From Croceivirga thetidis (lineage in GTDB: Bacteria > Bacteroidota > Bacteroidia > Flavobacteriales > Flavobacteriaceae), in NCBI RefSeq assembly GCF_012272815.1, contig NZ_JAAWWL010000001.1, positions 1,551,146-1,615,145 on the forward strand: a stretch of 64,000 nt of DNA, written 5' to 3'. Numbering within the stretch: the first letter of the stretch is position 1; every line of letters starts with the position of its first letter. The notes beneath the pieces were generated by a model. The model was given only the letters and a program-made list of their open reading frames with translations. It did not search any database and was not told the origin of the DNA. The translations under genes and the position numbers were made by a program. Below, in pieces: positions 32,476 to 36,893 of this stretch.

Positions 32476-33720
32476 ATGAAAAAGTATGCCCCAATTTTAG
32501 TGTTTGCCTTATTCTTCGTCTTCACCTCTTGTAATGACGACAATGAACCTGAAGGCGAGTTTGCCGACTTCTTGGTCGCAAGACCATTGGTCATGACTCA
32601 GGAAGAATTTGAAAACAGTGTTGATATTATTACCCCACAACCAATTGAGGAGTCGGGCAAAATCTATGCCTATCAAGACTACATCTTTATCAATGATAAG
32701 TTCAAGGGGGTACATGTTATCGACAATTCCAATCCTGCAAGTCCACAAAAGTTATCCTTCATTACCATAGCTGGTAATGTTGATATTTCAATAAAAGACA
32801 ATTTCTTGTATGCCGATAGTTTAACCGATTTGGTGATCCTAGATATTTCCGATATCAATAGTATTCAATTGGTAGACCGCTTGGAAGATGTATTACGGGA
32901 AAACGTGATTTGGCCTGCCGCTGATATTTTTGAATGGGAAGAAATTGACTATGAAACCGAAGTTTTGGTCGGTTGGGAAGTGGTTTCCGAGCGAAGACGA
33001 ATAGATGAGGTACAAAGGGATGATATTTTGGTTGATTTTGCCGAAGCAGCCAATGATGCTGGTGGTGATACCGGTCAAGGAGGTTCCTTGGCGCGATTCA
33101 AAATCGTGGATAATTATTTATATGCTGTCGATAGTCATAATATCAACATCTTTGATATTTCCAATCTAGACGCACCTGTAGTGCAAGATCCTGTGTTTGC
33201 AGGTTTTGATATTGAAACCATCTTTAATAGAGGAGAGCATTTGTTTTTGGGTAGTATGCGCGGAATGTACATTTATAATATAGCCAATCCTGCGACTCCG
33301 ACATTTGTTTCCGAATTTCAGCACGGAACTGCCTGTGACCCCGTTGTGGTAGATGAGAATTATGCGTATGTCACCTTAAGAGGCGGAAACTTTTGTGGAG
33401 CCACCGAAAGTGGTCTTTACATTGTAGATATTACTGATTTGACAAATCCAGAGCTTGTGGTGATTTATCCGATGGATGAACCTTACGGACTTGGTATTAA
33501 AGATGACAAACTCTTTGTGTGTGACGGAAGTTCAGGATTAAAGGTTTATGATAAAAGTGAAGTTCCTGATTTACCGCAATTGAGTCATTTTGAAGACATT
33601 GTTACATTCGATGTGATTCCTATGGAAGATCAATTGTTGATGGTGGGTGACGGTACCTTATACCAATATGAGTACTTGGAAACTGAGATTCGATTGATTA
33701 GTAGTTTAAGCCTGAATTAA
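32476..33720 (+). CDS. LVIVD-repeat beta-propeller lipoprotein
   Basis: A 414-residue lipoprotein (signal peptide with F-T-S-C19-N-D-D). The mature part repeats the unit V-x-V-I-D-N-S-N-P-x-x-P followed by Y-x-Y-V, the LVIVD pattern that forms a propeller (visible near residues 80, 220, 270 and 325). A charged insert around 145-190 breaks the repeat pattern. It should be on the cell surface or in the periplasm. Two bases separate its stop from the Kunitz-domain lipoprotein, so the two are co-translated and may act together. LVIVD proteins have no agreed function. Confidence 0.88.
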   Translation: MKKYAPILVFALFFVFTSCNDDNEPEGEFADFLVARPLVMTQEEFENSVDIITPQPIEESGKIYAYQDYIFINDKFKGVHVIDNSNPASPQKLSFITIAGNVDISIKDNFLYADSLTDLVILDISDINSIQLVDRLEDVLRENVIWPAADIFEWEEIDYETEVLVGWEVVSERRRIDEVQRDDILVDFAEAANDAGGDTGQGGSLARFKIVDNYLYAVDSHNINIFDISNLDAPVVQDPVFAGFDIETIFNRGEHLFLGSMRGMYIYNIANPATPTFVSEFQHGTACDPVVVDENYAYVTLRGGNFCGATESGLYIVDITDLTNPELVVIYPMDEPYGLGIKDDKLFVCDGSSGLKVYDKSEVPDLPQLSHFEDIVTFDVIPMEDQLLMVGDGTLYQYEYLETEIRLISSLSLN

Positions 33721-33722
33721 TA

Positions 33723-34262
33723 ATGAAAGAACTACAGGTTTTTATAGCATGTGTGCTTTTCATGTCATTGGGGTTATTTTCTTGTTCGTCCGATGATGAA
33801 GGTACAGCAGCACTTCAAGAGCAGCTAAGAGCACTGGAGCTGCTTTCAGAAAGTGTGCTTTGTGAAGATATTTCAGAATGGCGCATCGCTGGATTAGGTG
33901 CCAAAGCTTGTGGTGGACCATCTGGGTACATTGCCTATTCAACCCAAATAGATACCGTAGACTTTTTAAGCCGTCTGCAACAATATAATGATGCGGTTCG
34001 GGAGAGAATAGAAAGGGAGGGTCTGATTTCAGATTGTATGGTGGTCACACCGCCGTCACAAATTCAATGTCAGGATGGAAAAGCAGTTCTAATATACAGT
34101 CCTTGTGAATTGGAACCTGAACCAGGACCTTGTTTCGCGGCCATCCGCCGGTTTTATTTTGATGAGGTTGATCAGGAGTGTAAAGAGTTTATCTGGGGTG
34201 GTTGCGGAGGAACCGTTCCATTTGAAACCTTAGATGAATGCTTGTTGTGTGAAGGTCGTTGA
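33723..34262 (+). CDS. Lipoprotein with C-terminal Kunitz/BPTI-type protease-inhibitor domain
   Basis: A 179-residue lipoprotein, lipobox L-F-S-C21. The middle part (about 40-118) has four cysteines (C47, C63, C105, C116) and the segment A-C-G-G-P-S-G-Y-I-A-Y-S. Residues 128-176 match the Kunitz fold: C128-x8-C137 with G-P-C, then A-x-I-R-R-F-Y-F, C153, F-x-W-G-G-C161, C173 and C176. Aligned to BPTI all six cysteines are kept; the P1 residue is F138, which points to chymotrypsin-like targets. Two single-residue deletions lie near the C-terminus (12 instead of 13 residues from the fourth to fifth cysteine, CxxC instead of CxxxC). Protease inhibition at the cell surface is inferred. Confidence 0.85.
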   Translation: MKELQVFIACVLFMSLGLFSCSSDDEGTAALQEQLRALELLSESVLCEDISEWRIAGLGAKACGGPSGYIAYSTQIDTVDFLSRLQQYNDAVRERIEREGLISDCMVVTPPSQIQCQDGKAVLIYSPCELEPEPGPCFAAIRRFYFDEVDQECKEFIWGGCGGTVPFETLDECLLCEGR

Positions 34263-34306
34263 GCATACAACGAAAGGAAAAAAATCTCCCCAAAAATCGA
34301 ATAAGG

Positions 34307-34335
34307 TATCCCGTTTTTCAACGGGATATTTTTTT
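34307..34335 (+). terminator. Terminator after the LVIVD/Kunitz operon
   Basis: TATCCCGTT (34307-34315), loop TTTC, AACGGGATA (34320-34328), followed by a run of seven T. Classic intrinsic terminator 44 bases after the stop codon, isolating this pair from topA. Confidence 0.85.
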
Positions 34336-34376
34336 GAATGCACCGCAATCACAAAACTTCAAATTAAAAAATCCTC

Positions 34377-34403: not shown

Positions 34404-36893
34404 ATGCCCAAGAATCTTGTCATCGTTGAGTCGCCCGCAAAGGCAAAAACCATAGAAAAATTTTTAGGAAAAGATTTTCAGGTGGAGTCCAGTTTCGGAC
34501 ATATTGCCGATTTGCCATCCAAAGAATTGGGCGTTGATGTAGAAAATAATTTTGAGCCAAAATATATTGTAGATAAAGACAAGAAACCCTTGGTCAAAAA
34601 ACTGAAAGATTTGGCCAATAAGGCCGAAACCATTTGGTTGGCCAGTGATGAAGACCGTGAGGGAGAAGCCATTTCATGGCACTTAGCCGAAGAGCTGGGA
34701 TTGAACAATAAAAATACGAAACGCATTGTCTTCAATTCAATCACAAAGTCTGCAATTCAAAAGGCAATCGAGAATCCTCGAGACATCAACTATAACTTGG
34801 TCAATGCGCAACAAGCAAGAAGGGTGTTGGATAGATTGGTTGGTTATCAACTTTCACCGGTCTTGTGGAAAAAGATTAAACCAGGACTTTCTGCTGGTCG
34901 CGTGCAGTCCGTTGCAGTGCGACTTATTGTAGAACGTGAACGTGAAATAGAAGCTTTTGATCCTGAAGCTTCCTATAGGATTAGGGCAGAATTCAAAACA
35001 ATAAAAGGTGAGGCTTTTTCGGCAAAACTGAACAAAACCTTCCCAACAAAAGAAAAGGCTGAAGATTTTTTACAATCCAATATTGGAGCTGATTTTTCCA
35101 TTGCCAATCTTGATAAGAAGCCAGCAAAGAAATCGCCCGCAGCACCTTTTACCACATCAACTTTGCAGCAAGAGGCTTCTAGGAAGCTGTACTTTAATGT
35201 ATCGAGAACCATGCAAGTGGCGCAGCGATTATACGAAGCAGGTCTAATAACCTACATGCGAACCGATAGTGTCAACCTATCGAATGAGGCGATTAATGCT
35301 GCCAAAGAAGCTATAGTCTCAAACTACGGCGAAAAGTACAGTAAGGTTAGAAACTATACAGGTAAATCTAAGGGGGCACAAGAAGCTCATGAAGCGATTC
35401 GACCAACAAATATGGCTATGCAAAGCCCTAACCTAGAGCGAGATCAGGCTAAATTATATGAGCTAATTTGGAAAAGAACCTTGGCTTCTCAAATGAGTGA
35501 CGCTGAATTAGAACGCACCAATGTTAAGATTCAGGCTTCTTCGCACAAAGAACTATTCTCTGCCAATGGTGAGATGATAAAATTCGATGGTTTTCTAAAA
35601 GTCTATCTAGAAGGGGTTGACGAAGAAGACAGAGCAGAAGAGCAAGATGGGCTGCTGCCAGAGATGAAAGTTGGTGACGCCTTGACAAATAGTTTCATTA
35701 CTGCTACAGAACGCTTTACAAGGCCGCCGTATCGGTATACAGAGGCCTCCTTGGTTAAAAAATTAGAAGAGTTGGGTATAGGCCGTCCCTCAACATATGC
35801 ACCGACGATTTCAACTATTCAGAATCGTGGCTATGTTGAAAAAGGCAGTTCTGAAGGTACCGAGCGCAAGTATCTACAATTGGAATTGAAAAGTGGTTCA
35901 ATCAATTCAACCACCCTTACTGAAACTGTAGGTTCTGAAAAAGGAAAGTTGGTTGCCACGGATATTGGTATGGTGGTCAATGATTTCTTAGTTGAACATT
36001 TCACCAACATTCTTGATTACAATTTTACGGCCAAAGTTGAAGAAGATTTCGATGAAATTGCCACCGGTGACGAAGATTGGCAAAAGGTAATGAAGGAATT
36101 CTACAAAGACTTTCATCCTACGGTGAAAGATGTAGAAGAGAATGCCGAACGTGCCAGTGGCGAACGTGTTTTGGGTATGGACCCAAAAACAGGAAGACAA
36201 GTATCCGCAAGATTGGGTAGGTTCGGTCCAATGGTGCAAATAGGAACTTCTGAAGAAGAAGAAAAACCACAATTTGCAAGCTTATTGCCAGAACAGTCAA
36301 TCAATACCATAACCTTTGAAGAGGCCATGGCACTATTTGAGCTTCCTAGAAAGCTTGGGGTTTATGAAGGTGAAGAAGTTGAGGCAAATGTAGGGCGCTA
36401 TGGACCTTATGTTCGGTTCGGTAAAAAGTTCATTTCATTGGCAAAAGGTGAGAGTGCTTTTGATGTAGATATGGATAGGGCCATTGAACTTATCAAAGAA
36501 AAGCAAAAGGCAGATGCACCCATTGCAGCTTATGAAGGAAAAGATGTGACCAAAGGTGTTGGTCGATTTGGGCCTTTTTTAAAGTGGGATGGAATGTTCA
36601 TCAATGTGAATAAGAAATACGATTTTGACAATCTTTCCCAAGCTGATATTGAAGAATTGATTGAAGCCAAAAAGAAAAAGGAAGCGGAAAAAGTAGTTCA
36701 AGAATGGGCCGATGAAGGAATTAGGATTGAAAAGGCCCGTTGGGGACGACACAACATTATTCAAGGAAAAATAAAAGTTGAAATTTCAAAAGATGTTGAT
36801 GCCGTCACCCTTTCGTTAGACGAAGCGAAAGCGTTATTGGAACAAAAGGCGCCTAAAAGAAAAACTAGAAAGAAGACAAAAGCTAAAAAATAG
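34404..36893 (+). CDS. topA: DNA topoisomerase I (type IA)
   Basis: Relaxes negatively supercoiled DNA. The TOPRIM domain opens the protein (V-I-V-E-S-P-A-K-A-K-T, with D-E-D-R-E-G-E near 78). The catalytic tyrosine is Y284 in I-T-Y-M-R-T-D-S. The C-terminal third has no zinc-finger cysteines; instead it has repeated units of the form Y-E-G-x-x-V-x-x-x-V-G-R-[FY]-G-P-[FY]-[VL] (near residues 590, 652 and 710), followed by a lysine-rich tail. Length 829 fits Bacteroidota enzymes. Confidence 0.97.
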   Translation: MPKNLVIVESPAKAKTIEKFLGKDFQVESSFGHIADLPSKELGVDVENNFEPKYIVDKDKKPLVKKLKDLANKAETIWLASDEDREGEAISWHLAEELGLNNKNTKRIVFNSITKSAIQKAIENPRDINYNLVNAQQARRVLDRLVGYQLSPVLWKKIKPGLSAGRVQSVAVRLIVEREREIEAFDPEASYRIRAEFKTIKGEAFSAKLNKTFPTKEKAEDFLQSNIGADFSIANLDKKPAKKSPAAPFTTSTLQQEASRKLYFNVSRTMQVAQRLYEAGLITYMRTDSVNLSNEAINAAKEAIVSNYGEKYSKVRNYTGKSKGAQEAHEAIRPTNMAMQSPNLERDQAKLYELIWKRTLASQMSDAELERTNVKIQASSHKELFSANGEMIKFDGFLKVYLEGVDEEDRAEEQDGLLPEMKVGDALTNSFITATERFTRPPYRYTEASLVKKLEELGIGRPSTYAPTISTIQNRGYVEKGSSEGTERKYLQLELKSGSINSTTLTETVGSEKGKLVATDIGMVVNDFLVEHFTNILDYNFTAKVEEDFDEIATGDEDWQKVMKEFYKDFHPTVKDVEENAERASGERVLGMDPKTGRQVSARLGRFGPMVQIGTSEEEEKPQFASLLPEQSINTITFEEAMALFELPRKLGVYEGEEVEANVGRYGPYVRFGKKFISLAKGESAFDVDMDRAIELIKEKQKADAPIAAYEGKDVTKGVGRFGPFLKWDGMFINVNKKYDFDNLSQADIEELIEAKKKKEAEKVVQEWADEGIRIEKARWGRHNIIQGKIKVEISKDVDAVTLSLDEAKALLEQKAPKRKTRKKTKAKK

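Follow-up and report, generated by a model that had tools for sequence, protein, structure and literature searches.

Here we describe a lipoprotein of the flavobacterium Croceivirga thetidis that ends in a Kunitz/BPTI-type domain. Anchored at the cell surface, it probably acts as a canonical inhibitor of serine proteases, chiefly those of foreign origin; we infer the surface display, the inhibition and the foreign target alike. The 179-aa protein is encoded at positions 33,723–34,262 of a 64,000-nucleotide window (the whole stretch of DNA that was analysed, to which coordinates refer unless a locus is named; all window features given below lie on the forward strand). Textbooks use BPTI as the standard example of a small protease inhibitor and present it as an animal protein. 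If prokaryotes have a broad branch of their own, in which the scaffold is fixed, P1′ is invariant and P1 changes fast, free-living microbes would possess a naturally varied collection of inhibitors on lipid anchors. Such a branch would also indicate that marine bacteria are under selection from proteolytic attack, and it would reopen the question of the origin of the animal Kunitz family. Natural P1 variants presented on one scaffold would also be well suited to direct testing by standard enzyme assays.

A Kunitz domain on a two-part lipoprotein

The Kunitz domain (residues 128–176, positions 34,104–34,250) takes up the last third of the protein, at its C-terminus, and the remainder is a lipoprotein domain unrelated to Kunitz. 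An earlier note on this DNA had proposed the same span, and the translation of the open reading frame bears it out: the six cysteines fall at residues 128, 137, 153, 161, 173 and 176, and G135-P-C137, R143-F-Y145 and W158-G-G-C161 lie exactly where they had been placed. The cysteine spacing is C-x8-C-x15-C-x7-C-x11-C-x2-C, as compared with x8-x15-x7-x12-x3 in BPTI; the six cysteines thus come in the same order and the first three spacings agree, while the last two, x11 and x2, show that the two one-residue deletions noted near the C-terminus are real.

The search with the Kunitz profile that had been suggested as a check yielded a significant PF00014 match (48.5 bits against a cut-off of 21, E-value 9.8e-13, profile positions 2–49 of 53). 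With phmmer, 109 distinct PDB sequences were matched at E ≤ 0.1, and among the 60 matches listed, headed by SmCI, TFPI and boophilin, all are Kunitz-type. Structure prediction, likewise suggested, also returned the Kunitz fold. The AlphaFold2 model, based on an alignment of 55 sequences (pLDDT 88.8, pTM 0.73), has strands at residues 141–147 and 152–158 and a helix at residues 170–174, i.e. the twisted β hairpin and C-terminal helix of BPTI. Every leading Foldseek match to the model is a Kunitz domain, and VIA-align superimposed residues 126–177 on APPI from its trypsin complex (1taw_B) with a Z score of 8.1 and 1.6 Å over 52 residues. We regard membership of the Kunitz fold family as firm, and by superposition disulfides 128–176, 137–161 and 153–173 would be expected.

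With the known members of the family (PF00014; MEROPS I2: BPTI/aprotinin, APPI, TFPI, boophilin, SmCI) the domain shares the six cysteines in order, a predicted fold within that same distance of APPI, the Gly12-Cys14-P1-Ala16 loop, Phe33 and the GGC turn. It differs from them in having one residue fewer between the fourth and fifth cysteines, Trp in place of Tyr35, V-P-F in place of the segment that contains Asn43 and a terminal CxxC in place of CxxxC, and in being part of a lipid-anchored bacterial protein, here a putative inhibitor.

The protein begins with a lipoprotein signal peptide (33,723–33,785) that ends in the lipobox L-F-S-C21. The residues after Cys21, S-S-D-D-E, are by motif comparison similar to the surface-export signal of Bacteroidota lipoproteins, the consensus of which is SDDFE in Flavobacterium johnsoniae and SDDDD in Bacteroides fragilis (PMC5080379); homologues carry SDDDNE, SNDDDN and similar motifs. 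Judged by this short export-like motif, the protein is probably a surface-exposed outer-membrane lipoprotein. Between the signal peptide and the Kunitz part lies the older N-terminal domain of about 80 aa (residues 47–126, positions 33,861–34,100), which is predicted with high confidence within the AlphaFold model and has no match in Pfam, NCBIfam or PHROGs. It contains Cys47, Cys63, Cys105 and Cys116 and the motif GxKxCGGPxxYIAYS...SDC, which in the wider family reads C..D..W...GxKxCGGPxxYIAYS...SDC...C, and many Flavobacteriaceae and other Bacteroidia encode this domain alone as a lipoprotein. One congener (G004) has a two-part homologue at the same locus that is 67% identical. Downstream of the Kunitz gene, at 34,303–34,336, there is a hairpin with a T tract that resembles an intrinsic terminator (RNA fold of 34,262–34,345, z −4.0).

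A constant contact frame around a changeable P1 residue

We scanned 84,980 species genomes with peptide patterns and an alignment of 13 domains, which returned 125 related stretches; these came from Bacteroidota, Marinimicrobia, Proteobacteria and archaeal metagenome-assembled genomes (MAGs). We kept 80: 58 from Bacteroidota, 10 from Marinimicrobia/Fidelibacterota, five from archaeal MAGs and seven from other bacteria (Pseudomonadota, Thermodesulfobacteriota, Myxococcota and Campylobacterota). The 80 domains examined below are 79 of these stretches plus the C. thetidis domain.

The reactive-site codons, at 34,131–34,139, encode C137-F138-A139, i.e. P2, P1 and P1′; the assignment of P1 to F138, made in the earlier note, follows from alignment to K15 of BPTI. 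The loop has the elements of a canonical inhibitor loop, namely G135 (residue 12 of BPTI), C137 as P2, F138 and the small P1′ residue A139. P1′ is Ala in all 80 domains and in 48 of 48 loci whose discovery did not depend on a pattern spanning P1′, and over the 78 regular domains the P2 Cys, Gly135, the P1′ Ala, Phe156 and the Trp-Gly-Gly-Cys turn are invariant. P1 is the second most variable of 46 columns: its entropy is 3.0 bits, ten different residues occur there, and it changes 39 times over the tree. K or R occupies it in 28 of the 80 domains, F, L, M or Y in 29, D or E in 12 and N or Q in 11, and even the close domains of Flagellimonas and Allomuricauda have F, L or E. Close pairs that differ at P1 have dN/dS of about 0.03–0.13 (about 0.05–0.13 for the Flagellimonas and Allomuricauda pairs), indicative of strong purifying selection, although with sequences this short the values are rough.

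A constant contact frame around a changeable P1 is the pattern of a standard-mechanism inhibitor under target change, a reading that does not formally test for positive selection. The loop has the look of one held under constraint for inhibition, and the domain likely belongs among working serine-protease inhibitors: the invariance of the P1′ Ala, the variability of P1 and the fusions to other inhibitor domains described below all back this assignment. Because the P1 classes are mixed over the 80 domains and change between close relatives, specificity would appear to be lineage-specific, and given the variety of P1 a single common target is unlikely. Phe at P1 suits chymotrypsin-like enzymes, so that for the C. 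thetidis protein such a target is one possibility among several.

Several relatives carry the domain together with others. In a MAG of a Nitrosopumilaceae archaeon (PL23a_bin.18), a 509-aa secreted protein combines Kunitz with a complete serpin (404.7 bits; L096:4779-6305); in an archaeal Methanophagales MAG, a lipoprotein joins a single Kunitz domain to about six of the Kazal type (L077:150-1466); and a Bacteroidota MAG has Kunitz and a thyroglobulin-1 repeat in one protein. In a Saprospiraceae MAG, six Kunitz domains stand in tandem in a 378-aa secreted protein (L083:4911-6044), and in Flavobacteriales TMED113 the Kunitz domain, immediately preceded by a weak pacifastin match, follows a Porphyromonas-type peptidyl-arginine deiminase domain (L054:3339-5312).

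Proposed role and target

Under the reading that we favour, the C137–C161 disulfide and the W158-G-G-C161 turn would hold out the loop G135-P-C137-F138-A139-A140-I141 to an S1-type protease. The loop would occupy the active site of that enzyme, F138 filling the S1 pocket, and would be cut only very slowly. The cell would be shielded from secreted serine proteases of competitors, grazers and animal or algal hosts, and P1 would change as the target proteases change. A functional analogue is ecotin (MEROPS I11), with which bacteria block S1 proteases of foreign origin at their envelope; ecotin is a periplasmic dimer and its fold is unrelated to Kunitz.

With regard to the cell's own proteases, the trypsin family PF00089 has a single match in the C. 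thetidis genome, a 469-aa open frame of a kind present in all congeners, which is probably HtrA/Do; the profile search of the genome found no S1 protease beyond it. This speaks against an own chymotrypsin-like target, in a survey of own proteases that covered PF00089 alone among serine-protease families, of which subtilisin, S41 and S9 are others. Nor does any protease gene stand out as recurrent beside the Kunitz genes at the 80 loci, where neighbours were clustered and not family-searched. With one PF00089 match and no recurrent protease neighbour, foreign proteases are the more likely target.

It is by comparison unlikely that the domain, as a canonical inhibitor, restrains secreted serine proteases of the cell itself or its kin at the cell surface, a self-protection like that of serpins beside subtilases. 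To judge from their names, many carriers (Runella, Hymenobacter, Marinimicrobia, Alcanivorax) live freely, the Kunitz–serpin fusion is compatible with either target, and the serpins of sponge Thaumarchaeota adjoin subtilisin-like proteases (PMC6790972). These bacterial and archaeal serpins, for which own or host targets have been proposed, are, as the present protein would be, prokaryotic inhibitors of serine proteases, and are secreted; they differ from it in being suicide inhibitors of about 370 aa, as opposed to the small reversible standard-mechanism inhibitors of the Kunitz type. Against an own target stand the lack of a protease gene that stands out among the recurrent neighbours, the lone PF00089 match, the kind of which is common to congeners with or without Kunitz, and the fast change of P1, which is less expected with a fixed endogenous partner.

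A second alternative, which we deem quite improbable, is that the domain now serves as a disulfide scaffold for binding (adhesion, receptor or substrate capture), with inhibition lost and P1 free of protease constraint. Kunitz domains of venoms and saliva have repeatedly been turned into non-inhibitory binders; animal Kunitz domains recruited for channel block or receptor binding are generally known, and such entries are among the fold matches. In this family, the N-terminal parts joined to the domain are unrelated, and some P1 residues are ill suited to trypsin and chymotrypsin: the acidic and amide residues found in 23 of 80 domains suit few known S1 proteases, which counts against the inhibitor reading. 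A free scaffold is nevertheless at odds with the fixed P1′ Ala, P2, Gly135 and secondary-loop G-G-C, a retained protease-contact surface pattern, with the 57 of 80 P1 residues that are K/R or F/L/M/Y, and with partners that include dedicated inhibitor domains.

A chromosomal slot in Flavobacteriaceae

The Kunitz gene occupies a slot between two conserved genes. On its left, separated by a 2-bp gap, lies a gene for an LVIVD-repeat lipoprotein (32,476–33,720; PF08309, 61.4 bits), which was found in 11 of 11 congeners, and on its right lies a topA-like gene (34,404–36,893), by sequence a type IA DNA topoisomerase, which also flanks empty slots. Among the loci returned by the genome scan, 13 from flavobacteria have the arrangement LVIVD–Kunitz–topA. 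In some of these loci (Flagellimonas, Allomuricauda, Maribacter and others) the slot holds a Kunitz lipoprotein of about 80 aa; in Croceitalea and Croceivirga, Kunitz stands behind the same N-terminal domain as here, and in two further loci (L102 and L118) behind another N-terminal part.

Within the genus, LVIVD and topA are directly adjacent in five of the 11 genomes, three have the N-terminal domain alone, two have the two-part gene and in one the slot is cut short. The syntenic gene of congeners G002, G003 and G007 stops at about 126–132 aa, before any Kunitz part, and no Kunitz remnant is recognisable in the ~120–140 bp that separate it from topA; G003 does have an EPGPGN tail, which is not long enough for a call. 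Since only two of the 11 genomes of the genus have kept it, the Kunitz domain is dispensable. On the LVIVD tree at least four changes are needed to account for Kunitz presence, and the slot of the nearest relative (G009) is empty. This history fits vertical inheritance with repeated loss, and a few regains of the gene are possible; the Kunitz domain would then be an accessory that is passed on by descent, is frequently lost and has its fixed chromosomal place behind the LVIVD gene.

Contamination was ruled out, as the flanking genes are identical in kind across 13 bacterial assemblies. A mobile or viral origin was considered and gave no match among plasmids, phages and viral contigs, and as a candidate for anti-phage defence neither the Kunitz gene nor its neighbour has a PADLOC match.

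A prokaryotic branch of the Kunitz family

The x11 spacing between the fourth and fifth cysteines (C161–C173 here) and W-G-G-C occur in all 80 domains, and V-P-F nearly always. As a check on ascertainment, WGGC/PF was present in 13 of 13 loci found by the other pattern alone. The terminal CxxC occurs in 39 of 58 Bacteroidota rows and in two of 22 others; x11 being universal and CxxC mostly confined to Bacteroidota, the two deletions are layered. The carriers include named strains (Runella limosa, Larkinella humicola, Hymenobacter busanensis, Flagellimonas, Alcanivorax sp. S71-1-4), which argues against a pure MAG artefact. In samples drawn without the patterns, the Pfam profile matched genomes of the family (12 of 397), a phylum sample (6 of 395), Pseudomonadota (3 of 398), Marinimicrobia (16 of 149) and the phylum to which the Methanophagales MAG belongs (2 of 247), counts that include seed genomes and a few weak or broken matches. 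The animal x12 spacing is absent from all profile-found domains that were read.

On the tree, 79 prokaryotic VPF domains are separated from 11 animal domains by a split supported at 100/96, and the prokaryotic domains are not nested inside the animal ones. The alignment has only 50 columns, the animal sample is small and the branches are long, which leaves root and direction unreadable. The earlier note had called for such a phylogeny and had left the choice between an old bacterial branch and a drifted transfer. The former is supported by the spread of x11, WGGC and VPF across phyla and by synteny in 13 loci, and the latter is unsupported in view of this split and of the GC3 of the Kunitz segment (0.36), which is as in neighbouring genes.

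The idea that this flavobacterium recently took up an animal Kunitz exon, which has since drifted, has in its favour that Kunitz is regarded in the literature as an animal family and that transfer from animals is suggested there for one bacterial case (PMC11511053). We dismiss it as hardly credible in view of a signature common to prokaryotic phyla, the absence of x12 spacing from the profile-found domains that were read, the separate branch, the inheritance-like synteny, the ordinary GC3 and the lack of any plasmid, phage or viral contig match. The bacterial case is F6W77 of Acinetobacter baumannii, the sole experimental report of bacterial Kunitz domains that our literature search found: it has five Kunitz domains, inhibits factors Xa and XIa, is said to resemble animal Kunitz peptides and has been proposed to be of animal origin (PMC11511053). 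Compared by description only, it differs from the C. thetidis lipoprotein in having five domains as against one. The same search found no described Bacteroidota Kunitz family or x11/VPF branch, which is no proof of absence. A more far-reaching proposition, which we put forward tentatively and with considerable doubt, is that prokaryotes, Bacteroidota and Marinimicrobia above all, may have their own ancient and rapidly re-targeted BPTI-type branch that serves as surface shields against foreign proteases, with the animal Kunitz family as its sister or even its descendant.

Several variants were seen among the related loci. Six Marinimicrobia domains (L182–L185, L191 and L193) have Asp at P1, Gly at P1′ and two extra cysteines (in P-C-D-G-x-C-P and W-G-C-C), which suggests a fourth disulfide. 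L036 and L037, near position 1500, represent a second bacterial Kunitz-like type with YSGC and x10 to the fifth cysteine, in other Bacteroidota families. Near position 1500 of L038 (G561) the Kunitz gene is split across two frames, as a decayed copy or an assembly error. A close relative in the uncultured Flavobacteriaceae FRAM18_bin214 (L060) has Tyr at the first Kunitz cysteine, and Chryseosolibacter histidini (L049; G809:C63 34222-34662) has two adjacent Kunitz genes.
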